From Crambe crambe (Eukaryota; Porifera; Demospongiae; Poecilosclerida; Crambeidae): DNA of 64,000 nt. The stretch is taken from the NCBI GenBank assembly GCA_963924555.1, contig OZ004588.1, forward strand, positions 5,270,001 to 5,334,000. The letters run 5' to 3'. The translations under genes and the position numbers were made by a program. Position 1 is the first letter of the stretch; each line of letters opens with the position of its first letter. Shown piece by piece: positions 28,701 through 61,575 of this stretch. The notes beneath the pieces are model-generated. The model made no database searches. It was given only the letters and a program-made list of their open reading frames with translations, and was not told the origin of the DNA.

Positions 28701-31700
28701 GGAAAAAAATTTATGCTAAATAAAAAGGCCATGTAGGGTTAGCCTGTACTTTTAGAGTTTCTGTCAACAAAAATCAAAATAATGTTGCCTTCAATAATAA
28801 TCCCTACATCACTGCCTCCCACCAAGCTGCTTTAATTGTTCATGTCAGTATGACCTTTGAATATTGTTTTCAAGTAAAAATTAATTAATAGCTGGTTGGC
28901 ACGCGCGTACGTACACGTAATAGTGACAGACGCGCGCGCATGACAAATGAGTCATTTAAAATGGCTGACATAGAAAAGTCGTTCGATATGAGTGATCATT
29001 TTGAAGGGAAACTGTAGATATAACGATGGTAAAAGCACATTGTGTGGTTATAACTGCACAAGTTGATATGAATTTCATTATCGTATGTGAAAGGATCATG
29101 GAGTTACAGCCGTCAAAGAAGATGATGAACGAATCATAAAAATTTTAGATTTAGGCGGCGGCTGGTGCCGATCGTTGACGCTGTTCTGGAGAAGTTTGAG
29201 CGGTCATATCATCTTCTGCATTGTTTTCCACTGTTCTGTTGCTTTTGCTCTTTCTGTGCTAGATTTAACTCGCCTCACTCTCAGAAGTGTTCTGTGCAAG
29301 CTGTTTATGTTTGTGTCGCTACTAACTGGTTAGATGAAAAGAGTCTTCGCTATCAAAGTATTGACCACGAGAGCTGTTCTTTCACTCTATTTCACTGATG
29401 TGAATCAGGTCTGGAGCTAGCTAAAGCTAAGCTGATAGAATATGCACGTGCTACATACATTTTGACAATTACATCATTCACCATGCATAATTTTTTATGT
29501 ATTATTTAATTACCATATTTCCTTGAATAATAGCCCGCCTTGAATAAACACCTGCCTCATATAATCGCCAGGAGACTTCAAGCAACATAAGAAATACACG
29601 CCGGCCTCGAATCAACGCCTGGTCAAAGTTCAAAAGCTGCAAACCGCGCGCGCATGCCAGTTTGCCATGTGCATGAAGCAGCTGCTAAGTATCTATGGTT
29701 TGATCAGATGTAAGAAGTTTAGTTGAGCCTGTACCAAGAATAGAAGAAATACAGAGAGTCTAGTTTGTATTGTTCTAATGAGAGAAGCCACGCCCATTCC
29801 GTACTAACCGCACTCTCTGATAGTAGTCAGTGAACCCCTACAAAAGTTTACCCATGAGAAATTCCAATCTTTACATTCAATTACTCAACTCTTGTTTTCT
29901 CAGGACATAGGTATCTCTCTTTCTAGCTAGCTAGCTACTGTAGCTAAACTCATTATATTTGGAGACATGAATCTGAATCAACTGCCATGGAAGAAAACCT
30001 TTTTTCTCCTGCTCTGTTTCATAAATGTGTTGCTCATCAGCTTTTACTTATACAAACCTTCACCATCAACTGATCCTGTCAAAGAGATTATTTCAGGGAA
30101 GACAACAAGTGTGGAGAAGATAGAGTTTATGTCAAGGTTGACTAGTTCTGTAGTTCCCCTGCAATTGCAAAGTAAGCTTACTAGTATAGGAGGTAAGGAT
30201 GCATGGTCATGGTGATAAGACTACACTATCAATGAATGGAAGTAATATGACGGTCAAAGGTGCTCCAAAACCATATGTGAAGGATGATAAATCCAGTGGT
30301 AAACTTGAGCTCACTAAGCTTCATTGGACTTCACTCTATGGCAAAGGTGAAGATGATAGTTATCACTTTTTTGCTGCTTACTATGATGGTCGAGCATCAG
30401 CTCCTGATAGACCAGCTGTGATTGTGCTTGGTTATGTCAGGAGAAATGTCACTGCTATAAAATTGTATTGTCTCTTCAGATTTACAAATGGAAGTGAAAT
30501 TTATTTAAAGCAACCTGCAGAAGAAAAGATTGTAAACTGCCAAACACATCTGCGAGGCAAGACTTATCATTACTTTTGTAAGATGAGCGCAATTGAAGAG
30601 CCTCCAATTTCCATAAGGGTGAGCACTAAGAGCAGTTGTGAGCTAGTGTCCAATTCAGGGGAGATACCAGTACAGAATCGTCTTAGTGGCACAAATGTCA
30701 AGATGAAGAAATTTGGGGTGTGTGTAGGGGGACCAGTGGTGCAAGAGGATAATACTACTCTCCAAAATCTTGTCCAATTCATTGGAATGAACCGAGTCCT
30801 AGGTGCTGAAGTGATTTACTTCTACATCAATCTGATGCAGATGCGCTCTGATTTTCTGAAGTATGTACTGGAACGTTACTCCTCTGATATAGTCCGTGTG
30901 ATTGAGTGGAAGAAATTTAACAAGTGGGTTCTTTTATATTACTATGGCCAGCTCCTAATAATGAATGACTGCTTGCTCAGTCTACGTTAAGAGCAAGGTA
31001 CAAAGGTTACAACTCGCGGGAAAAAGGTTTGTATTAAGCAATAGGACACGTTTTGCTCATTCAATATGTCTATATATTTTATATCATAACTTTCATTCTA
31101 TCATATTTTATTGTTTCTTATTTCAATAACAATAGTTGATCTATAACCTATGCCGCTTAAATGACGTTTTACTTGAATAGTCCATCGAAAAACGAGGCAG
31201 TTCTAGAGGTGAATTTACTCGAGGGGGGTGACTTGGGTTGACTGTGCAAGATGCAGCAAACGCTTTCCTGATCTTGACTCTTTGCTGAGAGGTAGTCCAT
31301 GCTTTATATTTCAACATACCTTTGAAACTTTTCAGTATCCTACTTTGTGCTTCGAGATACACGGTCACAAATAGTGACAAAAACACCACTTTTTAACCAT
31401 GAACTGGCATACTCAAAACTAACTTCAAATCTTTTATAGCTCCACAGCAGTCTAGATTAGACCCACTAGTATCACTGCATACTATAGTTGGCCCTCTATG
31501 ACTAATGGCTTTAGGCTTATAGCGTCCTTGCTACACGGCCTTCTTCTTCTCCGTCCATTTTCCCAATTTTCAGTAGACTGTGCAACATGCAGCAAAAGGT
31601 CAGTGGCACTTCATTTTTGGATGACATCATCCCTGACCTCAATACTATAGTATTATACTACCATAGTAACTCCTACCTGTCCAGAATTAGAGATATCAAC

Positions 31701-32502: not shown

Positions 32503-34802
32503 AAACACTTTTGAATTTTTTCTTATTTTACACAGCTACTAATAATTTGTAGGCACTTTAGAGCTTCATTTTGGTCATCTTAGTACTTGTTACCATCATA
32601 GAAATCCAAAAACTCCCCATTACATATAGTTCAGCTAGGCTGCACTGTCCTTATGTATGTACATGTAGAGGTGTTCAATGTTGATGACCTTTACCTAGTT
32701 CCATGATTTTTTTTCTTTACCTATTGATATAGTTCCATGATTTGCTGATCATGGTTCTCACTCATCTGCTTGCAATAAAGCCAGTTGTGTTTGTATCTCC
32801 AGCCCTAATTATGCTCACCAATCAATGCTAGCTAAATGGAAGTGCTAACTCTCAGTGCACACATAAGGCACAGTAGTTAAAAGGTCTGCTGTTACACATA
32901 GCTACATACAATGGTATTAGTATAATTCTGTGTGTTTGTTGGCTAGCGAAGAGAACCACCTACTAGTAGGGTGTTGAATGAGGGGCGTTACTATACACGT
33001 ATGTTCTTCTTGTTCCATCTGGTGCGATATTGTGATGTCATCAGCTAAAGCTTCGCTTGCCATAATGCTTTGTATTTCATCTCTCACAAGAGATCACTGA
33101 TGAACTGGAGGTTTTATTTTGAATGATCTATCAAATTGGCATGTATACACCACAGTTTATTGAGAATAATTCAAGCACACATTTCACATTCTCATTTTGA
33201 ATCCCCAACAATGCCTGCATGTGGACTTTCTGGAGATTGTACACATAATTATACTCTATAAAAGCATGCAGGCAAGACATGTAGCAGCTAGCTAATGGCT
33301 GTATAAGTTTGAGCAATATGCTACACCACAGACACAGCTCATCTTGCATTGGTGTAGTCTTGTGAAGCCATTTAAATCTGGACTAGCACAAGGATGTAGG
33401 GTCTGGACTATCAGATGAGTATATAGACTAGGTAATGGTTGAGACAATGAATGTGAGTTAAAAGCTGCAGATCTTGCCTTCTTTCTCGTTTATCCTAAAA
33501 TCAACTCAAATTAAACACCGGAGAGTGTCATCTAGACATTGTTAAGGCCGAAATTGAAGTGCTCTGATCATTACTGGCTACATAGTCAATGTAGCAGATA
33601 CATAGACACTGAGTACTATAACCCTTGTGCTTGCACTGAGGGTTAACAAGCATACCTTTGGTATCATTGTTATTCAAGGGCAACCACATACCAAGTATAA
33701 TACCTTGTAGTAGAAGAAATGAAGATACTAAACAATGTAGTTGTGCAATTGGAGTATTTTTGGTAAGGGTCATACTACATGTAGTTATTGGGTAAGGGTT
33801 GTCGATATTGACTTATACTGAATAGTGCTGCTTAGAGAAAATGTACCTTCACTGGACTATCTGTTCTTTGTGAGAAATGATTATAATTTTTGGCTCTTCT
33901 AAAATAGGTATAGGAGGAAGAACATTTTTATTTTCTACATACGGTTTGTGTCTTAATCTTAGATCTTTATATTTGCAGGCATGCTGTAAAGATGGTCTTC
34001 ACAACACCAGTCACATTCAATTTGGGGATTGGTGCACACGTTATACTCAATCTTGTCAGAAATGTAATCCTTGTTTCAATGAGTGGAGAGATTCAGTGAA
34101 CTCGGGGTTAAAGGTGGCAGGTGCACTCGGCTTGATTTTCAGCTTCACTCAGGCAAGTGTGTATATATATAGTACTTATATTATTGGAGTGATGGTCACA
34201 TGCAGCAGTGCTCATACATAATTATCACCCTTAGAAAGTGCTCAGACAGGTCATTGATTGCTTCCCCAATAGTTATATGTGACAGTCCCAAGTAGAAATC
34301 GTATTATTTAGAATTAACTATGAATTTGTTCCAAACTTTTGTGTTGATGTTAGACTATCTCTACACCAAAGTTCAAGATTATGGCCACTAATAGCCAAAC
34401 TAATTACTTGTGGGACTGTCACATACGTACCATCCTTTTCTAATGTGTGCGTGCGTGTGTGTGATGTAACAATAATCCACTATACTTTCATTATTATATT
34501 TGTTTAAAAATGCCAAGTTCTGATATTTTCAATATGAATTCCCTGGAATGCAAACCTCCACATCTTGTTTTACTCTTTCCCCAAATGACAACACTTGTAT
34601 ACTCTTTACTGCTGCCAAAAGTCTCCAGATCAAAAGTTACACTGGATAGCATAATTAACAATTTTGAAGTTTATGAGCATGCTTGGTGACATCAAATTTA
34701 CATCTGCATTTTTATTTGTTTCCCTAGATTGCAGGCATCATTCTCACATTCAGACACAGAAATCTCAAGGACCCTAACATCAACCCTGGGGACTATCTTT
34801 AG
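25711..34802 (+). CDS. Tetraspanin, TSPAN13/TSPAN31 type
   Basis: Exons 25711-25779, 25843-26013, 26251-26487, 33979-34152 and 34728-34802 are all in phase 0 and give 241 residues. TM1 begins at FAAVRCFLILLN, TM2 at VIIGVAVVAVVLFLVAI and TM3 at YMILLGFSGMALFAVSVG. The large extracellular loop has the CCG motif (NLNCCGFDDRS) and many Cys, including CQKCNPC. TM4 (VAGALGLIFSFTQ) runs into the cytoplasmic end RHRNLKDPNINPGDYL. The layout, with the short C-terminus ...K-D-P..., matches the TSPAN13/31 subfamily, small membrane-organising proteins. Intron 3 is 7.5 kb and contains a broken glycosyltransferase gene. Intron 4 appears to use a GC donor (CAG|GCAAGT). It converges on the Death-domain gene, 182 bp between stop codons. 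Confidence 0.85.
26488..29514. other. Non-coding part of tetraspanin intron 3
   Basis: About 3 kb without a supported exon. It holds scattered low-complexity stretches (T-rich 26660-26690) and local repeats such as GTGCTACAACCTGCCC near 28010-28140. None of the small frames has splice-site or family support. Confidence 0.5.
29515..29640. mobile_element. MITE-like fragment with CCTCGAAT(C/A)AACGCC motifs
   Basis: Contains ATTTCCTTGAATAATAGCCC, CTTGAATAAACACCTG and CTCGAATCAACGCCTGG. This recalls the short elements beginning ACCGTATTTCCTCGAATAA seen in many invertebrate genomes; the comparison is from memory. Both ends were not resolved. Confidence 0.45.
29967..32424 (+). pseudogene. GT92 (DUF23) family glycosyltransferase, broken copy nested in tetraspanin intron 3
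   Basis: Begins MNLNQLPWKKTFFLLLCF, a short cytoplasmic tail plus signal anchor as in Golgi type II enzymes. The GT92 core follows in pieces: KKFGVCVGGPV, FIGMNRVLGAEVIYFYIN, YYYGQLLIMNDCL, then YLVINDLDEIILPVEHDNW with the DxDE-like metal motif (here NDLDE), and HYRFKFPKST. Frame breaks occur near 30195, near 30977 (the frame resumes as STLRARYKGYNSREK) and near 32258 (resumes as GYVRSYNMLAEAG). About 950 bp of unrelated sequence separates the second break from the NDLDE segment. A run of 19 A at 32341 sits inside the last segment. No functional product is likely. Confidence 0.8.
32425..33978. other. Remainder of tetraspanin intron 3
   Basis: Contains an (AAC)n microsatellite at about 32469-32503 and otherwise nothing I can support. 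Short frames on both strands lack family features. Confidence 0.55.
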
Positions 34803-34984
34803 TTCAGTTTTGATGTGTATAGCTTGTCTGAATTACACTGTAGCTATTGGGGAGAAAACATGTTTCATTGGCTGCATGGTACAACTTAGCACCAAGCATT
34901 ATCAGAAGGGATTGTAAAAAAAATTTATAAAAAAATATTATTTGTACTGAACTTAAAGAAAAACTAATTAGATATCCTGATAAC

Positions 34985-37900
34985 TTAAAGAGTCAATAAA
35001 CTTGCTGTGAGTCCAAATCCTGCCTTATCCACAGCTGACTTGAGACCTGACAAAGTGGCACAAGATGTGCTGCCCCTGGCACCCCCAGGGGCCCATTGCA
35101 GCCAAGATGCAAGCATGTCATTGAGGTGACTCTTTGGTGCTCCAGCAAGGAGTAATGGCTTTGCTTGTATGGCATTCAGCTCTTCGGGGAGAAAGCCAAG
35201 GTGCTGTCCAATGGCTTGCCATTGTGATGCATGGGGATTCAACTGCTCACATATTTTGCCATGGCCCAGTGGTGTGGTGGGACTCAGAGGGGGATCTGCA
35301 TAATCAGTTGTTATAATCATAAATCCAGTAATCTGATGTGTAGGTTAAGTATTCTATTTCTCAGATGGTAGCTACTGACCTTTATTAGGTTTATCCATAA
35401 CCATCATGAAGTAATTGTATGGTTCTTTTGCCCCAATGAGCTTTAGTTCATAATGTAAATCAGATGATTCTTCACTTTGCATCCACTTGAGGTCAAGTTT
35501 GCAGAGAGGTGGCCATCCACCAGTAAATTCATTAACTTTACTTTTCTTTATCTAATAATTGTGTGGAGATAATATCATAAGGCCACTATTTATAGAATAA
35601 TATTAATAGTGGCCTAATGGCAACTTAATAATAATAGATAATCTAATAATGCACATAACATGATTCAGCCATAAACCTACCCCAGGATGTGCTATTGATA
35701 GCAAGGTCCATCCAGGTTGTATTTCTACTCTCTCTTTTTCTGGAAGATCGAGTTTGATCTCTCTGCCAGAGAACTTCACACTCTGGTGAGCAAGAGATAT
35801 AGCTGAAATTCCTTCATCTGAAAAAAATTTCTTCAAATGCTACAAAGAAGAAATCATGTGGCTATAATCTCTTAGCTGGAAAATTTTTTCTTTCGAAGCT
35901 ATACAAAGCAATGGAACTGCAACTGGAGAGACCTCCAGTGGTATATTTTCTACAGTCTAATTGTATTATGCTTAGAATAAAATAATTATTAGATAAAATT
36001 AATTACCATTCTGAAAAGTTCAGAATCTTTTAAGACTGCAAAGTAGATGTTCCAGTTATGCTTGGAAGAAAGTTCACAATTGAGAGAAGCACAGTATCTA
36101 TTTAAAAGACCTAGATTTCTTCTGAGAATAGCAAATATCGAAAAGGACTGCACATTTATTTCCCCAAACTTTTTATCAGCAGGAAAAATACCACCATGTA
36201 TTTCTTGGAAGGTATAAGGAGGTTTGTAATCAGAATTAACAGCGAATATGAGATCATCCATGTGACCATCAGATGAGAAGTGTTCTATTCCCACTGTGAC
36301 GGGTTTCTCAAAGTAAGAAGAAGAGCTCTTGACACTGTAGACTCCGCTCACCAGCTCAGTGGCAGCAGGGAATACAAATTGACCAGAAATAGCAGCTTTG
36401 ACTTGTAAAACACACTCACTCCTGTCCAGAGGTAAAGCATTTCCTGGAAAGCTGATCTTGAAACCATGGTCTTCCCAGACATGTGTGATGGGTTCTTGCT
36501 TGTAAGGAATTGACGTCTCTCCAAGAACATCAAGTCCAGAAAGATCTGTTCTTCCACTAAAATAGTAATTTAAATAGCTATAGTGAGCTTACCATAAGAT
36601 GCAGGTTCTGAGAGTCTTGGTGGCACCTACAGTACATTATGTTGATAATGGTTGGTATATGATAGCATAATCTTAGAAATAAGTAGCCATTGAGTGAAGT
36701 CATAGTTGATAAAAGACATTAGTAGGGCAAAAGGAGAATAATAATGAAATCATATTCCACACATAATAATGCATAAGAGGTTGATGCTGATATGTAAAGA
36801 AACTTACTTCCTGACAATAGGACTGTGCATTAAAGAGGTTTAGTCTAAATATAGGTTAGGAAATTAGAGAACTTACAGGCTAAAGGAATTACATCATAGT
36901 GTTTGTTGGAGTTGAAGTTCATGAGGAAATAATCATAACATAAACAATGATAGATGACAGAGAATAATTTACTTCCTAAAGGAAAAAATATATATTATGC
37001 ATTATAATAAATTATACATAGGTTAATTTAAGTAAGTAACGTACATTCTGAGCCTGAGAAAATACACATTTTGAATATACATGATAGAAGTTGAATTAAA
37101 GTATAAGAGTCAGGTAACTTACTCCCTGAGGAATAACATTCAGCACACATTGAATATGTATAATAGAGGTTTAGTTAAAGTGTATGAGTCAGGAAATGAT
37201 AAACAGAAACTTACTCGCTGAGAAAACCACATTCAACACACATAAAATACACATAATAGAGGTCAAGTTGAAGTGCATGAGTCAGGAAATTAGAATAACT
37301 TACGCGCTGAGGGAATCACATTCAGCACACATTGGATACGCATAATAGAAGTCAAGTTAAGTGTATGAATTAGAATACTTGAGTAACTTACGATTTGAGG
37401 AAATCATAAGTTGAATACATAATAGAGATTAAGTTATATGTATGAGTTAGGAAATTAGAATTACTTACGTGCTGAAGAAATCACGTTCAGCACACATTGA
37501 ATACGCATAATAGAGGTCAAGTTGAAGTGTATGAGTCAGGAAATGATAAACAGAAACTTACGAGCTGAGGAAATCACATTCAGCACACATTGAATATGCA
37601 ATAGAGGTCAAGTTAAAGTGTGTGAGTCAGGAAATGATAAACAGAAACTTACGAACTGAGAGAATCACATTCAGCACATGATGAATACGCATAATAGAGG
37701 TCAAGTTGAAGTGTATGAGTCAGGAAATGATAAACAGAAACTTACAGACTGAGGAAATCACATTCAGCACATATAGAATATGCATAAAGTGTATGAGTCA
37801 GGGAATAATACAGAAACTTACTTCCTGAGGAAATCACATTCAGCACATATAGAATATGCATAAAGTGTATGAGTCAGGGAATATACAGAAACTTACCTTC

Positions 37901-40900
37901 TGAGGAAATCACATTCAGCACATATAGAATATGCATAAAGTGTATGAGTCAGGGAATATACAGAAACTTACTTCCTGAAGAAATCACATTCAGCACATAC
38001 AGAATATGCATAAAGTGTATGAGTCAGGAAATATACAGAAACTTACTTCCTGAGGAAATCACATTCAGCACATATAGAATATGCATAAAGTGTATGAGTC
38101 AGGGAATATACAGAAACTTACTCTCTGAGGAAATCACATTCAGAATACACATAATAGAAGTCAAGTTAAGTGTATGAGTTAGGAAATGATAAACAGAAAC
38201 TTACGAACTGAGGAAATCACATTCAGCACACATTGAATACACATAATAGAGGTCAAGTTGAAGTGCATGAGTCAGGAAATTAGAATAACTTACACGCTGA
38301 GGAAATTACATTCAGCACACATTGAATACACATAATAGAGGTCAAGTTGAAGTGCATGAGTCAGGAAATTAGAATAACTTACACGCTGAGGAAATCACAT
38401 TCAACACACATTGAATACGCATAATAGAGTTCAAGTTAAAATGTATGAGTCAGGAAATGATAAACAGAAACTTACGAGCTGAGGAAATCACATTCAGCAC
38501 ACATTGAATATGCATAATAGAGGTTGAGTTAAAGTGTATGAGTCAGGAAATATAGAGTAACTTACAGCCTGAGGAAATCACATTCAGCACACATTGAATA
38601 TGCATAATAGAGGTTGAGTTAAAGTGTATGAGTCAGGAAATATAGAGTAACTTACAACCTGAGGAAATCACATTCAGCACACATTGAATATGCATAATAG
38701 AGGTTGAGTTAAAATGTATGAATCAGGAAATATAGAGTAACTTACAGACTGAGGAAATCACATTCAACACGCATTGCATAATAGAGGTTGAGTTAAAGTG
38801 TGAGTCTGGAAATATAGAGTAACTTACTTCCTGAGGAAATCACATTCAACATGCATTGCATAATAGAGGTTAAGTTAAAGTGTGAGTCAGGAAATATAGA
38901 GTAACTTACAGACTGAGGAAATCACATTCAACACGCATTGCATGATAGAGGTTGAGTTAAAGTGTGAGTCAGGAAATATAGAGTAACTTACAGATTGAGG
39001 AAATCACATTCAACACGCATTGCATAATAGAGGTTGAGTTAAAATGTGAGTCAGGAAATATAGAGTAACTTACAAGCTGAGGAAATCACATTCAGCACAC
39101 ATAATAGAGGTTGAGTTAAAGTGTGAGTCAGGAAATATAGAGTAACTTACAGGCTGAGGAAATCACATTCAGCACACATAATAGAGGTTGAGTTAAAGTG
39201 TGAGTCAGGAAATATAGAGTAACTTACAGCCTGAGGAAATCACATTCAGCACACATTGAATATGCATAATAGAGGTTGAGTTAAAGTGTGAGTCAGGAAA
39301 TATAGAGTAACTTACAGACTGAGGAAATTACATTCAGCACACATTGAATATGCATAATAGAGGTTGAGTTAAAGTGTATGAGTCAGGAAATATAGAGTAA
39401 CTTACAACCTGAGGAAATCACATTCAGCACACATTGAATATGCATAATAGAGGTTGAGTTAAAATGTATGAATCAGGAAATATAGAGTAACTTACAGACT
39501 GAGGAAATCACATTCAACACGCATTGCATAATAGAGGTTGAGTTAAAGTGTGAGTCTGGAAATATAGAGTAACTTACTTCCTGAGGAAATCACATTCAAC
39601 ACGCATTGCATAATAGAGGTTAAGTTAAAGTGTGAGTCAGGAAATATAGAGTAACTTACAGACTGAGGAAATCACATTCAACACGCATTGCATGATAGAG
39701 GTTGAGTTAAAGTGTGAGTCAGGAAATATAGAGTAACTTACAGACTGAGGAAATCACATTCAACACGCATTGCATAATAGAGGTTGAGTTAAAATGTGAG
39801 TCAGGAAATATAGAGTAACTTACAAGCTGAGGAAATCACATTCAGCACACATAATAGAGGTTGAGTTAAAGTGTGAGTCAGGAAATATAGAGTAACTTAC
39901 AGGCTGAGGAAATCACATTCAGCACACATAATAGAGGTTGAGTTAAAGTGTGAGTCAGGAAATATAGAGTAACTTACAGCCTGAGGAAATCACATTCAGC
40001 ACACATTGAATATGCATAATAGAGGTTGAGTTAAAGTGTGAGTCAGGAAATATAGAGTAACTTACAGACTGAGGAAATTACATTCAGCACACATTGAATA
40101 TGCATAATAGAGGTTGAGTTAAAGTGTGAGTCAGGAAATATAGAGTAACTTACAGCCTGAGGAAATTACATTCAGCAGACATTGAATATGCATAATAGAG
40201 GTTGAGTTAAAGTGTGAGTCTGGAAATATAGAGTAACTTACATGCTGAGGAAATCACATTCAGCACACATTGAATATGCATAATAGAGGTTGAGTTAAAG
40301 TGTGTGAGTCAGGAAATATAGAGTAACTTACCATCTGAGGAAATAGCATTCAGCACACATTGAATATGCATAATAGAGGTTGAGTTAAAGTGTGTGAATC
40401 AGGAAATATAGAGTAACTTACCATCTGAGGAAATAGCATTCAGCACACATTGAATATGCATAATAGAGGTTGAGTTAAAGTGTGTGAGTCAGGAAATATA
40501 GAGTAACTTACATGCTGAGGAAATCACATTCAGCACACATTGAATATGCATAATAGAGGTTGAGTTAAAGTGTATGAATCAGGAAATATAGAGTAACTTA
40601 CCATCTGAGGAAATAGCATTCAGCACACATTGAATATGCATAATAGAGGTTGAGTTAAAGTGTATGAGTCAGGAAATATAGAGTAACTTACAGCCTGAGG
40701 AAATCACATTCAGCACACATTGAATACACATAATAGAGGTCAAGTTGAAGTGCATGAGTCAGGAAATTAGAATAACTTACACGCTGAGGAAATCACATTC
40801 AGCACACATTGAATACACATAATAGAGGTCAAGTTGAAGTGCATGCGTCAGGAAATTAGAATAACTTACATGCTGAGGAAATCACATTTAGCACACATTG

Positions 40901-43900
40901 AATACACATAATAGAGGTCAAGTTGAATTGCATGAGTCAGGAAATTAGAATAACTTACATACTTAGGAAATCACATTCAGCACACATTGAATATGCATAA
41001 TAGAGGTTAAGTTAAAGTGTGAGTCAGGAAATGTATAGAAACTTACAGACTGAGGAAAACACATTCAGCACACATTGAATACGCATAATATAGAAGTCAA
41101 GTTAAAGTGTATGAGTCATGAAATTTGAGTAACTTACATACTTAGGAAATCACATTCAGCACACATTGAATATATGCATTATAAAGGTTGTTTGAAGTAT
41201 ATGATCTCATGTAGCTAACAGAATAACTTACATCCTGAAAAAATAGTAATATACATGTACATAATTAAAGTTGTTGTGAAGTAACATAGAGTAATGGCTT
41301 TATTATTTTAGCATTGTCATTGAATAAGTTGGCTAGACTAGTGCCTCAACTTCATTTAGATTCAATATTAGAAAGAATGCCCCATAGGAATAATACATAA
41401 TTAATCTTCTTCAACAACTCTTATCTTCAAGCCAGAACACCTTCAATGTGATAGGACTCGAGTATGAATAAAGTAGTGTCATTTTTAAACTCTTTCTTAG
41501 AATCTGTGTCATTAAGGTTGTGACAGACTCCAGGAGCCCCATGGACCTTCACAAGATTGGGCATACGTGACCCTACAATTCCATTAACACATCTGTGATT
41601 TAATCATCACACACTTGGCAGTGTGTCTATAAGCTGCCCTAGTACAGTTTTATCTTCCTATAGCTAGCTGATCAAAATTAATTCCACCAAATAGTCAGAT
41701 ACGTCTTCACTCGCAATTAGAGTGGTAAACCTGCTAACTCATGCATGAGGGTTAGTTCAAGTCAAGTGTCTGAAACATGATAGTGCATATGATGTACATG
41801 TGAAGTTGATACATGAATGTATGTACATGTATGTGGTTATAGTATAACTATCCCTGTGTCGAGACTGAATTGTAGTGGATAAAAGCTGTACTTCTGCTGG
41901 TGCATGCATATTCAGATGCCTCTGACTCGGCTGCTGCTAACAAATCAGGAATTTATCATGGTGTGTGGAGTTGAATCCTCTCTGATTTTTCAACTTAAGG
42001 TTAAACAATTTCAGGGTAGAGAAATACAGACTAGACTGAACCTATATTTCCACAAAAAAGTTCCTGACACCATATTATCTGGAGATGTAGTTTTTTTTTG
42101 AGTTTTAATACATCATTTTTGCCAAGTACAAGCTAGCTCACAACCAACAATTCACTGCTAGTACATTATAATCTTTGATGTATCAATTCCTTTCATTGTG
42201 AATGCATTAATTTCCAGCTGTGCTGCTCCTTGTGCAGGCTTGAGCATTTGGCTTGACAGATAGATTTATGGGTGGTGCCATAATAGGAGGTTGCCATGTG
42301 AACTACTTGGTAGCTACAGTCAGTGAAGTAAAGAAGTCACTCATAAATATAGATACTTAATCTCAACATACAGTAGCTTTCACTAAACAGTATAGCTATT
42401 AGCTAATGAATAGTTCTGGAGGTTTTTCAAAAGTGAAGATGGATCTGAAGGTCCAGGTAGTGTGTAGTATTGACTTCACAAATTTCATTTGTTGAATGCA
42501 TGCAGCCAGAACGTTATATAGGTAGTAGCTGAGTCACACTGCCATTTAATTAATCTAAAACTATACTGACAAGCTGATTTTTTCCAGGCATTACATATAG
42601 CTAATTACTGATTTGCTGGATGATATAGCGAAGTCCAAATTGGTTGCTAACATAGAATGCAAGGTTTTGTTGATTTACCACATGGAGGTGGGAAAGAAGG
42701 CAGATGTTAACTTATAGGCAAGAAGCCGTATAGAGTCTGTACATAGTGGTCATCTTGAAAATTCAGGAACAGTTTAAAGAAAACAGGACGATTATATATA
42801 AAGTCCACAAAATAGAGGTATAGCTAGACGCAGGCATGGAGCTACCTTCATGCATGCCTTCTTGAACCGGTAGCAACTGGCTCTCTGCAGAATTGCAGAG
42901 TAGACGGAAGCTCCAGTGGGGCACTGGGCCTCTTTGGTTTCCGATATATAATATTGATGTCAGCTGCCCTTTTATTAACGTTTACCACCACTAGATATTT
43001 ATCTATCAGGTAGCCATGATGGTTTGTTGCACTTATTCTAGTTTCCAACTAATTTTCTTGCCAGCATCAACTTAGGACAAAGTTCATTTTATAGATAATT
43101 TATCTGGCTACTAATATTTATCTCCATAGGCCAAGTGGACTTGAAGTTAAATAGAGCTCTCTACAATCTAAAGTTGGCACTTTTTGTTTTCAAGTGCAAC
43201 AATTTCAGCAGTCACACTTTGACTGCTGCTTCTAGCATCACTGCTAATTATAAGCTACAACATTAGGCATCTCAAAGTGAACAAGAACAGAACAGCTTCC
43301 GACTCAGTAAAATTAATGGTAAATGCCCACATACGTTGCTTATAATAGATAGCCAAAATAAAATTAAACGCAACTTTGTTTATACAAAATCAAGTAGTGC
43401 AGCTATATATATATATATATATAAGGTATTATTACTATATAATATAATATGATTGTATTATATTATATTACATTACTGCAATATATACATATAAGGCAAA
43501 GTATAGCTACGTAGCCGGAGAGCAGATGTACAAAAACTCGCAGATAATATACTTTCAAGCCAGGTCAGAGTTTATTGTTGAATACACACGTCATGGGGGA
43601 AAGATCGAAGAAAAACCTGTGGAATTCATTTCTAGCCTTGAAAATGTGAAGAAATAAATGAAGGTCCCTGATTTCCTTGTGCAAGGGGAAATCGATAGCG
43701 TCAATTGCTGCATCACACAGCCCTTTTCTGGAGACAGATTGGAATATATAGCTACCCTTGCATATGCAGCACTGTATGCATTGGTTGACTTAGGGTTTCT
43801 GCATAACTGGCATTACTCAATGCTCATAGCCACGTTCCCGATCCCAGGCCTTCCTCTCTCACTGGTATAGTCTCTCACGAAGAAGAGGTATACCTTTTCT

Positions 43901-45277
43901 TTATGAGAGAGGAACGAGGCTAAATGCTCACTGGAAAAGTGTACTTTAGGCAGTTTTATGACTTGATAGTAGCTATCGCTACTAGGGTAATGTACAACAT
44001 TTAACAGCAAGCGAGCGAGCAAGTATTTAGAGCTGATAGCATGTGCATTATGCACATGCATGCACTAGTCTACTACGTATGAGACAGACCTCGATGAATC
44101 ATGACCAAGAGCACTCGCTCACTGAATTAGGTTCAAACCATTTTGATAGTGGTTTGACTTGAATAGGGCACAAGAAAGATCCATGACTGTTTGACTTACT
44201 CAGTTTTTCATCAAATTTATTCTGAGCAAAGTGAGGCTATGGTTGCATTCATTAATAACAACTATATATGGACACCTCCATTATGATCTGAATACCTTGA
44301 AACTAAACCACATTATGCTTCTGCCACCATAATGGTGTACTTGTCTCTATGACTGTATGTCTACCTATAGCTAGCTATAATTTCAGAAACTAGTAGCCCA
44401 TCAACAACAGCAACAGTATATTATACCCCAGGTGGTGGTGTGCCTTAATCACTGGATCACTCCATCCTTTGTGATCTGATAGATAGAGTGACTGTGGTCA
44501 TGGGGAAGCACAGCTTAGAAGCTAAGGGTTCATATAGTTTGGAAGACTCTTTACATGTTTCTTATACATGGCAATTATCGTTATTGACTCTTTGTACTAT
44601 AGTGTGCATGCAGAGTTCAATGTTCAAAGTTAATTAGGATAATACCATGCAATAGAACTTTATGGATGGACTGACACACTAGCTAACACAATAGCTACTA
44701 GCTACTAGTGTTTTATTTATCTGCTAATTCATCATCATCTCAGCTGGTCCATACACACATGCAAAGTTCTCTATAGTCATTGCAGACACACAGCATGCAA
44801 TCTCTCGCATGCACATTTGGCACTGTGGTGACCCTGTACCAACTAAAGGGGTCAAGGATATCACTTTGGAATGTTATGATTACACCATGCACTTCCATGC
44901 ATACGGTACATGATTCCAAAAATCAGATCAAAAGAGCTGAGTAGTAACTTGGGTATCCAGCTTTAAATTGCAGAGATGTATTTTCAAGTACTTCCAACTC
45001 AGAAAAGTTTTATGTTAAGCCTGTCTTCCTTTGCAATATTATGAACTGATGAGGTAGCATAATGAGTCTGACAATACAGCTGATTATACACCCAAGATGG
45101 TAGGTGGGTCAATTAGACATGCATGTTGCATATTTCCTAAAGTTCACTCACTATCCCACATGAAGATAATATCTTTATCTTGTTAGCTACCCACATTAGC
45201 TATAAATTGTGTGTTTTTTGGCTGCTTAAAAAAAAATTAAGAGAGATGCTTACCCTGCGTCCACAACAGTTCCCCAT
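34985..45277 (-). CDS. Membrane-anchored ZU5-UPA-Death protein gene with a bank of candidate one-codon microexons
   Basis: Exon 1 (45277-45254) encodes MGNCCGRR, a predicted N-myristoylation signal with adjacent palmitoylatable Cys, ending in phase 0 at GTAAGC. Constant exons follow at 36626-36593 (VPPRLSEPASY, 34 nt), 36545-36007 (ZU5: VWEDHGFKISFPGNALPLD, then FVFPAATELVSGVYSV), 35839-35681 (UPA-like: LPEKERVEIQPGWTLLSIAH), 35551-35380 and 35295-34985 (Death domain: LNPHASQWQAIGQHLGF, LASWLQWAPGG). These total 1239 nt, exactly 413 codons with stop, all junctions in phase. Between exon 1 and the 34-nt exon lies the 53-unit array described separately. ZU5-UPA-Death is the intracellular module of UNC5 and PIDD-type proteins, used in apoptosis or innate signalling. 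No NACHT, TIR or transmembrane segment was found. The exon 1 link rests on splice sites and phase only. Confidence 0.75.
36808..41234 (-). repeat. Tandem array of 53 units, each a candidate 3-nt microexon with its own splice sites
   Basis: Units are 75-90 bp. On the coding (minus) strand each reads TTTCCTCAG, three variable bases, then GTAAGTTACT, then an intron-like stretch with TTTAACTCAACCTCTATTAT and GTGCTGAATGTGA, which could supply a branch site. I count 53 units, from the triplet at 41232-41234 (first transcribed) to 36808-36810 (last). All keep the GT; 51 keep the AG (lost at about 37395 and 38995, where CAG became CAA). The triplet takes 21 values in 53 units. A block of nine units (triplets 38656-39318) is repeated 750 bp further on with the same triplet order (39406-40068). 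Ends are more diverged than the centre. Confidence 0.9.
41235..45253 (-). other. 4-kb intron between the MGNCC exon and the first microexon candidate
   Basis: Mostly non-coding, with a (TA)n tract at about 43402-43423. One possible coding remnant is listed at 43826-43941. No other splice-flanked frame was recognised. Confidence 0.5.
43826..43941 (-). pseudogene. Possible Sema-domain-like exon fragment
   Basis: After a CTTTTCCAG acceptor the minus strand reads EHLASFLSHKEKVYLFFVRD, continuing YTSERGRPGIGN. The order K-V-Y-x-F-F-x-R-(D/E) followed by a Gly-rich turn resembles the core of semaphorin/plexin Sema domains. There is no convincing donor in phase, and it lies alone in a large intron of the ZU5-Death gene. 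It may be a relic or chance. Confidence 0.25.
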
Positions 45278-46041
45278 TGGTGCTGTGCAGTCCGCTTCTG
45301 TCTTGATGGTACTCTAGCTATTGTCCGCCTCCGCAAATCCTATCCTTTGCGCAGACTGCGCGCGCAGCGCCTTGCTCACGCCCACTTTTAATTTGAGCTC
45401 AACTGCCTACGTGGCTGAAATGCTATTGATATGAGGCTGCACCAGCCCATCTAGCTAGATTTTACACGTAAACCTTTTAGCAAAAACAATAGTTGTGCTC
45501 ACTTGTTTGTTTCCATGCATAGCCATGCCATAGCTAACTAACTATGGGAATCATTTATTTACAAACCCAGTTTCCTGGATCAGTGGGGTGTGCCTGGCTA
45601 GAAGAATGACAATAGCTACACCTTGAAGTCACACATGGTGCAGTCTTCCATGCATTAAGTATGTAAGCTTACCTCTGTGAATCCTGATATGAAGCCATCA
45701 ATTATCCGGAATCCACTTGGAATGTACCCCAGACCCCCTAGATGGTGTGCTTTGCACACTGTATAGCTTGTCACAAATCTTACACAAAAACATCCCCCCC
45801 ATAATTAATAAGTTAATTGTCTATGGTACTGTGAAACCATGGTCTTTGTGTTGCATGCACCAATAGTAAATCCATTAATATATAACATTAATTCCTAAAG
45901 CTCTATATACAGTCTCATGAGGTCTCTAACTGGGTCTCAGTTGGTCTCTTTCAGTCTCTCAAAGTGTCCTGAGGTCTCTAAGAGTCTCAGTTGGTCTCTT
46001 GTCTCATGAGGTCTCTAAGGGTAATGTTGGTCTTACAGATA
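45278..46041. other. Upstream region of the ZU5-Death gene, and spacer
   Basis: 45280-45400 is GC-richer (TGCGCAGACTGCGCGCGCAG) and is the likely promoter of the minus-strand gene. A small direct repeat of GGTCTCTAA and GTCTCAGTTGGTCTCT occupies 45910-46020, next to the transposon end. No gene seen. Confidence 0.45.
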
Positions 46042-46059: not shown

Positions 46060-47425
46060 GTGGACCGGGAAAAAAGTGGACCGGGGGGCAGAAAAAAATG
46101 GACCGGGGGGTCCACTTTTTTCTGCCAAAAGTGGACCTGCCTTGCCAAAAGTGGACCTGGTCCATTTTGTCAAGAAAAAAGTGGACCCGGTCCAGTTTTG
46201 GCAGGGGAAAAAAGTGGACCTGGTCCAGTTTCGCCGTCAAAATCTAAACAGGTCCGTTTTTGGCAGGGGAAAAAAGTGGACCCGGTCCAGTTTCCTGCCG
46301 AAATCCAGGCAGGTCCATTTTTGGCAGGGGGAAAAAGTGGACCCGGTTCAGTTTCCTGCCGAAATCCAGGCAGGTCCATTTTTGGCAGTGGACCCGGTCC
46401 AGTTTCCTGCAGAAATCCAGGCAGGTCCATTTTTGGCAGGGGAAAAAAGTGGACCCGGTCCAGTTTCCTGCCGAAATCTAGGCCGGTCCATTTTTGGCAG
46501 GGGAAAAAAGTGGACCCGGTCCAGTTTCCTGCCGAAATCCAGGCAGGTCCATTTTTGGCAGGGGAAAAAAGTGGACCCGGTCCAGTTTCGCTGTTGAAAT
46601 CCAGGCAGGTCCATTTTTGGCAGGGGAAAAAAGTGGACCCGGTCCAGTTTCCTGCCGAAATCCAGGCCGGTCCATTTTTGGCAGGGGAAAAAAGTGGACC
46701 CGGTCCAGTTTCCTGCCGAAATCCAGGCAGGTCCATTTTTGGCAGGGGAAAAAAGTGGACCCGGTCCAGTTTCGCTGTTGAAATCCAGGCAGGTCCATGT
46801 TTGGCAGGGGAAAAAAGTGGACCCGGTCCAGTTTCCTGCCGAAATCCAAGCAGGTCAATTTTTGGCAGGGAAAAAAAGTGGACCAGGTCCAGTTTCGTTG
46901 TTGAAATCCAGGCAGGTCCATTTTTGGCAGGGGAAAAAAGTGGACCCGGTCCAGTTTCCTGCAGAAATCCAGGCAGGTCCATTTTTGGCAGGGGAAAAAA
47001 GTGGACCCGGTCCAGTTTCCTGCAGAAATCCAGGCAGGTCCATTTTTGGCAGGGGAAAAAAGTGGACCCGGTCCAGTTTCGCTGTTGAAATCCAGGCAGG
47101 TCCATTTTTGGCAGGGGAAAAAAGTGGACCCGGTCCAGTTTCCTGCCGAAATCCAGGCAGGTCAATTTTTGGCAGGGAAAAAAAGTGGACCAGGTCCAGT
47201 TTCGCTGTTGAAATCCAGGCAGGTCCATTTTTGGCAGGGGAAAAAAGTGGACCCGGTCCAGTTTCGCTGTTGAAATCCAGGCAGGTCCATTTTTGGCAGG
47301 GGAAAAAAGTGGACCCGGTTCCAGTTTCGCTGTCGAAATCCAAGCAGGTCCATTTTTGGCAGGGGAAAACAGTGGACCTGGTCCATTTTTGCTGCTGAAA
47401 TTTAGGCAGGTCCAGTGGACCTGGC
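46060..47425. repeat. ~60-bp minisatellite derived from the transposon end
   Basis: About 20 units of roughly 60 bp: AAAAAAGTGGACCCGGTCCA, GTTTCCTGCCGAAATCCAGG, CAGGTCCATTTTTGGCAGGG. Two main variants differ in the middle (CCTGCCGAAATC or CGCTGTTGAAATC). The TGGACC(C)GG core equals the motif at the element's ends. Because most units are a multiple of three and lack stops, both strands show long open frames; they are artefacts. Confidence 0.9.
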
Positions 47426-56569: not shown

Positions 56570-57480
56570 TTTGGAACTACTCCACTGATCTCAACCAGTG
56601 CCACCTCCAGCTGCACACCCCCTCCCAAAAGGTAAGCAACTAACTAGCTATACATAACACATATCACGATCTTACAATTACATCATCCAGTGCCACCTCC
56701 CTTTGCACACCCCCTCCCAGAAGGTAAGTAACTATTTCATTACTCATACAATTACATCATCCAGTGCCACCTCCAGCTGTGCGCCCCACCTCCCATTGCA
56801 CACCCCCTCCCAGAAGGTAAGTAAGTAACGATAACAATTTCATTACTCATACAATTACATCATCCAGTGCCACCTCCAGCTGTGCGCCCCCTCCCAGAAG
56901 GTAAAGAATTATACATAGATAACATATTTCATTACTCTTATATCCAGTGCCACCTCCAGCTGCGCACCCCCTCCCAGAAGGTAAGCAGCTATAGATAACA
57001 CATTTCATTACTCTTACAATTACGTCATCCAGTACCACCTACTGCACGCCCCCTCGGCCTCCCAGAAGGTAAGCAACTATAAATAAAACATTTCATGATC
57101 TTACGATTACATCATCCAGTGCCACCTCCAGCTGCGCACCCCCTCCCAGAAGGTAAGCAACTAACTATAGATAGCATCTTACAATTACTTCATCCAGTGC
57201 CACTTCCAACTGCACACCCTCACCCAGGGTGGAGGGCTAGGGCCAGGGCCAGGCGCAGAGGGAGGGGTGTTCGATTCTGCCCGTTCCCATGTGAGTACAT
57301 ACTTAACCATTTTCCACCAACACATTATATAACATGTATCACCATAATCTTTAATTCCAGACCCTAATATGTATCGAGGAAACTGTAAGTAATATAAAAC
57401 ATTACAAAATCACTTAGCTATATATAGCTACTTGTCTTTTCCAGTGCATTTCCACTATCATCAAAAATAAAAAGTAAGTC
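56570..57480 (+). CDS. Tandem array of proline-rich exons, unknown product
   Basis: Seven near-identical segments start after CATCCAG or AACCAG and end at AGAAG|GTAAG: 56599-56631 (probably the end of an exon from 56573), 56691-56723, about 56764-56815, 56868-56900, 56948-56980, 57033-57068 and 57120-57152. Most are 33 nt (one 36, one about 52). In phase 1 each encodes PPPAAHPLPE or a variant. A longer last relative, 57198-57290, continues as GWRARARRRGRGVRFCPFP, then 57361-57384 reads YPNMYRGN, and the next exon (about 57445) soon stops. Introns are 40-70 nt. No ATG-bearing first exon was identified; GTATGT near 56370 may be the donor of an upstream exon. Confidence 0.55.
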
Positions 57481-59519: not shown

Positions 59520-61575
59520 GAAGGAATAAGCAGGGGAAACACATATCCCTGATCAGTGATATGTGTTCCCCTGACATGAAATTTGCAGCAAAGATACAGA
59601 TACCCTGATATTATAGCTTATACCTCTTAGAAATAAGCAGGAAAATATATCCCTGATCAGAGCAAAGGGATTATACATCAGTATGTCAGGGGAACACATA
59701 TCACTCCCTTCATGAAACCTCGGGTAAGATTTACCTCATGTCAGGCAAGGGTATACACTGATCAGGAATGTACGTATAATGTCAGGGGAATGCATATGTT
59801 TCCCTTGCTAATTCCTTCACTAAATTCAAGTGAGGTATTTATTGCACATTCATGCTTTGAATAATATTATCATGACTTATTACATGGTGGCAATATTTCA
59901 AGAGGCCATAGGCTGAGTGGAATATTATGCCCAACCAAGGGTAAGTAATAAATCTGATATTCAGCAAAATAATGATCAGGAATATAACTATGATCTCTTT
60001 GCTGCCAACTTCGTGTCAAGGGAACGCATATATCACTGATCAGGGATATGTGTTTCCCCTGCTTATTTCTTCACAAAAGAAACCTCTGGTGAATATTACC
60101 TTACATATGTCAGGGTAATCCCTTTGCTGCAAATTTCATGTCATGGGAACGCATATCGATAATAATTGTGTTTCCCCTGCTTATTCCTTCACTAAAAGAA
60201 ACCTCTGGTGAGGAATAATTGATTTTACCTTATGTCAGGAAAGGGTACACTGATCAGGGATGTGTATTTCCTTTGCTGCAAATTTCATGTCAGGGGAACG
60301 CATATCACTGATCAGGGATATATGTTTCCCCTGCTTATTTCTTCACTAAAAGAAACCTCAGGTGAAGTATAATTGATTTTACCTTATGTCAGGCAAAGGT
60401 ACACTGATCAGGAATGTGTATTCCCTTTGCTGTAAATTTCATATCAGGGGAACGCATATCACTGATCAGGGATATGTGTTTCCCGCCCTGCTTATTTCTT
60501 CACTAAAAGAAACCTCAGGTGAAGTATAATTGATTTTACCTTATGTCAGGCAAGGGTACACTGATCAGGAATGTGTATTCCCTTTGCTGCAAATTTCATA
60601 TCAGGGGAACACATATCACTGATCAGGGATATCTGTTTCCCCTGCTTATTTCTTCACTAAAAGAAACCTCAGGTGAAGTATAATTGATTTTACCTTATGT
60701 CAGGCAAGGGTACACTGATCAGGAATGTGTATTCCCTTTGCTGCAAATTTCATATCAGGGGAACGCATATCACTGATCAGGGATATCTGTTTCCCCTGCT
60801 TATTTCTTCACTAAAAGTAACCTCTGGTGAGGAATAATTTTTTACCTTACATGTCAGGGTATACTGATCAGGAATGTATAGTATATTCCCTTCACTGCAA
60901 ATTTCATGTCAGGGGAACAAATATCACTGATCAGGGATATGTGTTCCCCCTGCTTATTCCTTCACTAAACGAAACCTTTGGTGAGGAATACGTAATTGAT
61001 TTTTTACCTTACATATGTCGGGGTATACTGATCAGGAATGTATAATCCCTTTGCTGTATCATGGCCACATATCACTGATCAGGGATATGTGTTTCCCCCG
61101 CTTATTCCTTCACTAAAAGAAAGCTCTGGTGAGGAATATTGCCTTACGTATGTCAGGGTATATTAATCAGGAATGTATAATCCTTTCGCTGGAAATTTCA
61201 TGTCAGGGGAACGCATATCACTGATCAGGGATATGTGTTTCCCCTGCTTATTCCTTCACTAAAAGAACCTCAGGTAAGGTATAGAGTCTAATTGATTTTA
61301 CCTTGTGTCAGGCAAGGGTACACTGATCAGGAATATGTATTCCCTTTGCTGCAACTTTCATATCAGGGGAACACATATCACTGATCAGGGATATGTGTTT
61401 CCCCTGCTTATTTCTTCACTAAAAGAAACCTCAGGTTAGGTATAATTGATGTCAGGCAAGGGTACGGAATGTGTATTCCCTTTGCTGCAAATTTCATATC
61501 AGGGGAACGCATATCACTGATCGGGGATATCTTTCCCCTGCTTATTTCTTCACTAAAAGTAACCTCTGGTGAGGT
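59520..61575. repeat. ~160-bp satellite array, first block
   Basis: About twelve units containing CACTGATCAGGGATATGTGT, TTCCCCTGCTTATT, CTTCACTAAAAGAAACCTC, TTACCTTATGTCAGGCAAGG and TTTGCTGCAAATTTCATGTC. Units vary from about 120 to 190 bp by indels. TGATCA palindromes recur twice per unit. No coding potential. Confidence 0.9.

Follow-up and report, generated by a model that had tools for sequence, protein, structure and literature searches.

Tandem arrays of predicted one-codon exons in ZU5-Death-type genes of the sponge Crambe crambe

In flatworms (Schistosoma, Echinococcus, Hymenolepis), micro-exon genes (MEGs) carry 10-20 short exons, 6-81 bp in length (the abstract gives 3-81), separated by introns of 0.1-5 kb, and encode secreted proteins (PMC10526429). 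By the operational definition, a MEG has at least seven exons, at least half of which are shorter than 70 nt and divisible by three, in runs of at least four (PMC7653826). Outside such genes, 3-nt exons occur in Ncam and fly TnT (as cited in PMC8042270) and 1-nt exons in APC11 and VPS55 (PMC8831610). These isolated microexons are single or paired between ordinary exons, and they establish that tiny exons can be spliced. Here we describe long arrays of predicted 3-nt exons, found first in a window of 64,000 nucleotides from Crambe crambe (GCA_963924555.1, a 143-Mb assembly; contig OZ004588.1, here called C11, positions 5270001-5334000). The arrays resemble flatworm MEGs in having consecutive runs of micro-exons divisible by three, in allowing skipping that keeps the frame, and in being hard to annotate (PMC7653826, PMC10526429). 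In contrast to flatworm MEGs, each C11 gene is predicted to have 23-138 exons of exactly 3 nt, with introns mostly of about 70-112 nt, placed before a ZU5-Death region; moreover, the introns are nearly identical to one another and the codons are more variable than the introns.

The array in the window is read on the minus strand, and its features are as follows.

36808..41234, minus strand: one-codon exon array, 53 units of acceptor, 3 nt and donor, 51 of them with AG and GT
38992..38994, minus strand: decayed unit TCT, acceptor AG changed to AA, in a 161-nt gap
37392..37394, minus strand: decayed unit ATC, acceptor AG changed to AA, in a 162-nt gap

The original prediction had placed 53 tandem units here, with both AG and GT kept in 51 and exactly 3 nt in each. 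All of this was borne out, the other two units being the decayed ones, and the observation proved larger than first stated. A strict script requiring a GTAAGT donor called 49 intact units plus the two with AA, and the peptide read from the 49 is DYSYHRAMHMMHASAPLSSESVSAPLSESVALRRFREEKESFLHRRGPE. Array introns measure 66-93 nt, except beside decayed or weak units; the TCT unit is expected to be skipped in splicing. When the array was scanned for a pyrimidine and AG separated from GTAAGT by any length from 0 to 30 nt, 47 of the 48 matches fell at 3 nt and the remaining one at 15 nt. Dinucleotide shuffles of the array (500) gave a mean of 0.016 matches at 3 nt and a maximum of 1. No known RNA family was found in window positions 34000-46000.

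Six more genes of the same build (B to G, the window gene being A) lie on the same contig at C11:5334439-5496718. In these paralogues, exon 1 was placed by conservation and encodes MSEPR (C, D, F), MSKPR (G), MSEPTR (B) or MTEPR (E), in all cases in phase 0 with a GTAAGT donor. It is followed by 12-nt exons, CCACCTAA[A/G]GAT, encoding PPKD (PPED once in C and in D). One-codon exons come after each PPKD exon, and a further 12-nt exon after the PPED exon of C and D. Genes C, D, F and G begin with repeated PPKDE[E/K] in order, such that each (PPKD)(E)(K/E) module spans three exons; E has a single PPKD exon, and no 12-nt PPKD exon was called in the window gene. A [V/M][P/L]PRV[S/P]E segment, a ZU5-like exon, two conserved exons and a Death-like exon are present in five of the seven genes (A, D, E, F, G), with C-terminal identity to the window gene of 80% in D, 85% in E, 77% in F and 73% in G. 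Gene B holds only part of ZU5, has no Death match and looks decayed, and gene C was covered up to ZU5. At C11:5423893 there is also a 6-nt exon candidate with array-type splice sites, which suggests an eighth gene of the family.

Splice chains were built from exon 1 to the post-array exon by splice-site scores alone, with exon lengths of 1-45 nt allowed and with phase and stops ignored. In the window gene, the chain has 51 exons, of which 50 are 3 nt and one was scored as 9 nt (GCTCAG/AAT). Chains over the seven C11 genes comprise 522 exons, of which 490 were kept, all in array regions. A length of exactly 3 nt was called for 455 of these (A 50, B 23, C 24, D 52, E 138, F 99, G 69), and 483 are multiples of three. 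The 455 triplets use 39 codons and include no stop, where 17 would be expected from the base use of each array at the three positions; 0 of 20000 permutations were without a stop. Counting each codon type once per array (119 types) gives an expectation of 3.4 stops and P 0.018, which is the safer figure because units copy one another. Genome-wide, the motif TTYCYTCAG-NNN-GTAAGTT, which covers the C11 family and the second family described below, has 3341 matches and its reversed-pattern control none, while the same motif ends with 4-20 nt between them give 13 matches genome-wide and 13 in the control. A single TGA is the only stop among the 3341 triplets (no TAA, no TAG), and the reverse complements TTA and CTA total 28 (TCA uncounted). 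The unit motif TTTCCTCAG-NNN-GTAAGTT has 312 genome matches, with none for the reversed pattern; genome counts of such repeated motifs may be lower bounds. The triplets look translated, in phase 0, because a length fixed at three and the near absence of stops are hard to explain otherwise. An apparent 18 stop triplets (all TAA) in a first, loose-donor count on contig C1 overlapped neighboring unit calls and vanished on merging, and a stop symbol appearing once each in B and G came from similar overlapping calls.

The second family is on contig C1, where a gene with a ZU5 match at C1:8866789 has one-codon exons upstream on the same strand. Its array introns are often 112 nt, with the arrangement TTAATTTCATTCCTTCAG-NNN-GTAAGTTATTC, and the motif ATTCCTTCAG-NNN-GTAAGTTATTC has 2101 genome matches against 0 in the control. 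The first 10 kb read contains 60 acceptor-donor pairs with a spacing of 0-39 nt; every one is spaced at 3 nt, and one lies outside the array. Over 13.5 kb of array there are 120 units and no stop, and of four gaps longer than 150 nt, the one inspected holds a unit whose acceptor has changed to AA. The array introns of C11 are clearly alike among themselves, and therefore the C11 arrays share an ancestral unit. The C1 intron consensus, with its ends removed, was no more similar to the A, E, F and G introns than shuffled sequence was. The C11 and C1 C-termini likewise showed no similarity in a profile comparison (probability 0.2, with 100 as the maximum). Sequence thus does not establish that the two families descend from a common ancestor; the C1 arrays may be independent of those on C11, or very old. 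The array had been correctly located, and the feature belongs not to one gene but to at least two gene clusters.

Two other C1 loci, L001 (C1:8228301-8231319) and L002 (C1:8376092-8379110), lie 148 kb apart and have identical one-codon exon lists that are rich in W, F and L codons; as it reads, the pair is a recent large duplication with a predicted hydrophobic array peptide. A repeated CAG-CAT-GTAAG-like motif on the plus strand of both loci imitates a one-codon exon. On contig C3, ZU5 matches form a large cluster at C3:7485116-7825440; for one gene of this cluster (L035), the 8.5 kb examined, of which about 7.5 kb lies upstream, contained no one-codon array. In total, the reading took in about 0.27 Mb beyond the window.

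The spliced model of the window gene is one open frame of 462 residues. Its exons on either side of the array are the following.

45254..45277, minus strand: putative exon 1, ATGGGGAACTGTTGTGGACGCAGG followed by GTAAGC, encoding MGNCCGRR; phase 0, donor GTAAGC
36593..36626, minus strand: 34-nt exon, VPPRLSEPASY(D), the first ordinary exon past the array and similar to the [V/M][P/L]PRV[S/P]E segment that follows the array in B-G
36007..36545, minus strand: ZU5-like exon, Pfam ZU5 15.8 bits (cut-off 21)
35681..35839, minus strand: conserved exon past ZU5 (HLKKFFSDEG..HPG), no Pfam match near a cut-off
35380..35551, minus strand: conserved exon (IKKSKVNEF..PNK), no Pfam match
34985..35295, minus strand: last coding exon, Death-like, ending in TAA, Pfam Death 19.0 bits (cut-off 22.6)

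The ordinary exons of this gene have the donors GTAAGC, GTAATT, GTAGGT and GTCAGT, and the array donors are nearer GTAAGT. We infer that the MGNCCGRR exon belongs to the window gene because of its phase, its donor and a GC-rich upstream stretch resembling one in B, C, D, F and G; the inference is weaker than that for the conservation-based exon 1 of the paralogues. The predicted N-termini MGNCCGRR, MSEPR and MTEPR do not appear signal-like by eye, the last two being followed by charged residues, and MGNCC would, we presume, fit lipid anchoring. In ZU5-UPA-Death proteins such as UNC5, PIDD and the ankyrins, the order is ZU5, a middle region and Death, as it is here. The middle exons here differ from that type in having no Pfam match near a cut-off, and we know of no one-codon exon arrays in UNC5, PIDD or the ankyrins. 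The original prediction gave the label ZU5-Death to the window gene, in which both domains score below their Pfam cut-offs; in the C1 array gene both exceed them (ZU5 28.4 bits, Death 26.6 bits). A one-sequence structure of the window ZU5 exon had a mean pLDDT of 28.7 and was not used, and a profile search of the PDB gave only a match at chance level.

Between neighboring C11 units, the codon is the variable part: 56% of codon sites differ, compared with 16-19% of nearby intron sites and 1% of donor sites. By array, the codon and intron differences are 52% versus 4-6% in E, 58% versus 10-18% in A and 48% versus 9-14% in F, with a smaller contrast in B, C, D and G (59-72% versus 25-42%); in C1, neighboring units differ at 57% of codon sites, against 9% and 29% of intron sites, and at 7.5% of donor sites. 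Array E has 104 introns of 72 nt with 98.5% identity to their consensus, and one intron of this length recurs in 33 exact copies, next to eight different codons. The unit list of the same array contains a duplicated block of about 38 units, with the codons mostly unchanged. The least number of changes per site, for codons and introns respectively, is 3.3 and 0.46 in E, 3.0 and 1.2 in F, 2.0 and 0.9 in G, and 1.3 and 0.08 in A. Diversifying selection on the codons and homogenization of the introns by recombination would both give this contrast, and the two are not separable. Fast codon change is opposed by the PPKD region of F and G, where 3 of 64 coding sites and 120 of 845 intron sites differ; between C and D, 0 of 90 coding sites and 10 of 1291 intron sites differ, too little change to test.

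These results make it likely, in our judgment, that the array genes are of a ZU5-Death type, with an N-terminal region coded one codon per exon and read as a contiguous peptide. The evidence favors an ordered, mostly complete inclusion of the array codons, because nearly every unit has a near-consensus donor, the PPKD-E-K/E modules run in order and the C1 array peptide contains leucine heptads. Some alternative splicing is possible, being compatible with the donors, modules and heptads alike. The C1 peptide, ...EEELQELEKRKLELEKRLEELEKELQELEKRKLELEKRLEELEKELEEELRFL..., has hydrophobic residues at a spacing of seven. They occupy 6 of 7 heptad positions over the opening 25 residues (P 0.0024), 5 of 5 in a second segment (P 0.0021) and 12 of 16 over 53 residues that include a duplicated stretch (P 5e-5), although the segments were picked visually and the second nearly duplicates the first. 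In a Fourier test, all 120 C1 residues gave a peak at period 3.53 (P 0.022), and a 20-residue block was not distinct (P 0.28). Array E, with its 138 one-codon exons, is rich in E, R, M and K, a helix-like composition. A structured codon order in at least one gene favors contiguous inclusion; the peptide would be a coiled coil or charged helix in some genes and is probably disordered in others. Variable coiled coils would, we suppose, suit oligomerization or recognition.

Under contiguous inclusion, the introns, mostly about 70-112 nt, are predicted to be removed by intron definition. With just 3 nt between an acceptor and the donor after it, removal would be stepwise, one residue being added each time. 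The product would be a contiguous peptide between a short N-terminus (MGNCCGRR, MSEPR or MTEPR) and the ZU5-Death region. Unequal exchange through the near-identical introns would allow arrays to grow, shrink and be reshuffled, such that residues are gained, lost or moved without a frameshift, and the loss of an acceptor (AG to AA) would delete one residue.

Several observations weigh against contiguous inclusion or limit it. Splicing out 50-140 introns that flank 3-nt exons would make heavy demands on the spliceosome, and the inclusion, order and completeness of the array codons are all inferred from sequence. Among the 490 chain exons, seven have lengths not divisible by three (three in B, two in C, two in G). 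Another 32, called within the long first intron ahead of the arrays and mostly not divisible by three, were excluded as spurious. The 19 kb of C1 that was read has 102 acceptor-donor pairs spaced at 3 nt and 9 at other spacings of up to 39 nt. Because the units are mutual copies, the stop test rests on an effective number far below 3341. Helical periodicity is weak in array E (P 0.01-0.2 by test), absent from arrays F, G and A, and without a Fourier peak in a 59-residue part of C1 (P 0.89). As for the window gene itself, the MGNCCGRR exon is unique in the genome at up to 3 mismatches, its 5' region has only short matches to the paralogues, and it scores under the curated cut-offs for both ZU5 (PF00791) and Death (PF00531). 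Two protein searches with the predicted G and C1 proteins found no relative at E 0.01 or better. A search of the same genome for a spliced copy of the F peptide, run without a positive control, gave no candidate.

The original prediction had proposed that the array is a selectable string, in which each transcript carries a chosen subset of one-codon exons and one gene yields many peptide variants. Its one-codon part is supported, in that the units are 3 nt, in phase 0 and nearly free of stops; a choice of units to make isoforms is less likely, the signs favoring ordered and mostly complete inclusion. In its favor, 3-nt exons after a phase-0 exon could be skipped in any combination with the frame kept, array peptides differ among the paralogues, and flatworm MEGs vary by exon skipping (PMC7653826). 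However, the splice sites are mostly near consensus rather than graded, free skipping would break the structure of the codon order (heptads, PPKDEK modules), and two intron sequences, one a hand-made approximation, fold in an ordinary way (z -1.45 and -0.61), so that we consider a selectable bank unlikely. On the same two z values, regulatory hairpins were rejected. It is much harder to credit that the array is an intronic satellite whose splice-like sites serve as decoys or recursive-splicing points, with the triplets never entering mRNA. The units are tandem and near-identical, the array exons are predictions, and the juxtaposed acceptor and donor resemble fly ratchet points, at which an acceptor is directly followed by a donor and the intron is removed stepwise, as proposed here (PMC8605326, PMC6110457). 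Yet at ratchet points the two sites abut with no coding base between them and serve to remove one long intron. Here 3 nt lie between them, and zero-length matches in the window array number 0 against 47 at 3 nt. Moreover, one stop in 3341 triplets and a length fixed at three are hard to explain without translation, and it was on these stop and length counts that the decoy or satellite reading was judged unlikely.

An origin by a mobile, introner-like intron inserted repeatedly between the codons of an ordinary exon would account for near-identical introns between different codons, and introners do comprise many near-identical introns (PMC9860276). They are inserted into many genes genome-wide, often with target-site duplications, whereas the units here are tandem and fall in two gene clusters among the matches listed. 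An isolated match on C5, among those listed for the motif with 312 matches, lies outside C1 and C11, but all 29 places from two complete searches for rarer codons are on one of these two contigs. Insertion at every codon boundary is improbable in itself, neighboring codons mostly differ (the 56% of sites given above) with no flanking duplication evident, and block duplications of several units are visible; this origin is therefore improbable. Finally, highly repetitive regions can be mis-assembled, and the identical unit lists of the two C1 loci 148 kb apart could be taken as a sign of it. An assembly or reading artefact would nevertheless have to vary the codons between units and hardly touch the splice sites, in eight genes on two contigs whose introns are not detectably similar, and we give it almost no credence.

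Elsewhere in the window, tandem units of about 84 nt at 56693-57227 (plus strand) have CTCCCAGAAG followed by GTAAG, or a close variant, in five places; these look like short exons of another gene, in a small tandem array. Tandem arrays also occur at 46189-47414 (61-nt units) and 60115-61572 (units of about 154 nt). The plus strand at 30190-30990 holds a long open frame, presumably resembling a glycosyltransferase.

As predicted exons, the one-codon array genes are MEGs by the operational definition of PMC7653826. The window gene model has more than 50 exons, and exons shorter than 70 nt and divisible by three make up well over half, with 3 nt in 50 of the 51 window array exons and a multiple of three in 483 of the 490 over seven genes. 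Schistosoma MEGs are further marked by a signal peptide or secreted product and by long introns (100 nt-5 kb); here the N-termini, read by eye, are not of signal type, and array introns are mostly 70-112 nt, with longer ones before the array. A literature search covering titles and the starts of abstracts among the matches listed, with subscription journals and bioRxiv preprints mostly outside its scope, found no report of one-codon exon arrays. Because the MEG definition applies while exon size, number, intron length and product differ from those of flatworm MEGs, and no such report was found, the one-codon arrays are classed as an extreme form of micro-exon gene.

The difficulty of detecting small exons is noted in both the flatworm (PMC7653826) and plant (PMC8831610) papers. 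Gene finders and read aligners are likely to miss one-codon exons, so proteins of these clusters may be misannotated here and in related genomes. A tentative extension, which we hold to be possible but rather doubtful, is that thousands of one-codon exons serve as single-residue building blocks, from which intron recombination and diversifying selection, perhaps with cell-specific splicing, make variable N-terminal domains on a large Death-domain family, possibly for recognition or immunity. If RNA confirms the exons, the genes would come near the limiting case of a split gene, with runs of up to more than 100 consecutive one-codon exons, and they would test the order in which the spliceosome takes introns whose acceptor lies three bases from the next donor. 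They would also mean that proteins in a family of cell-death signaling folds can evolve one residue at a time, by recombination between introns.

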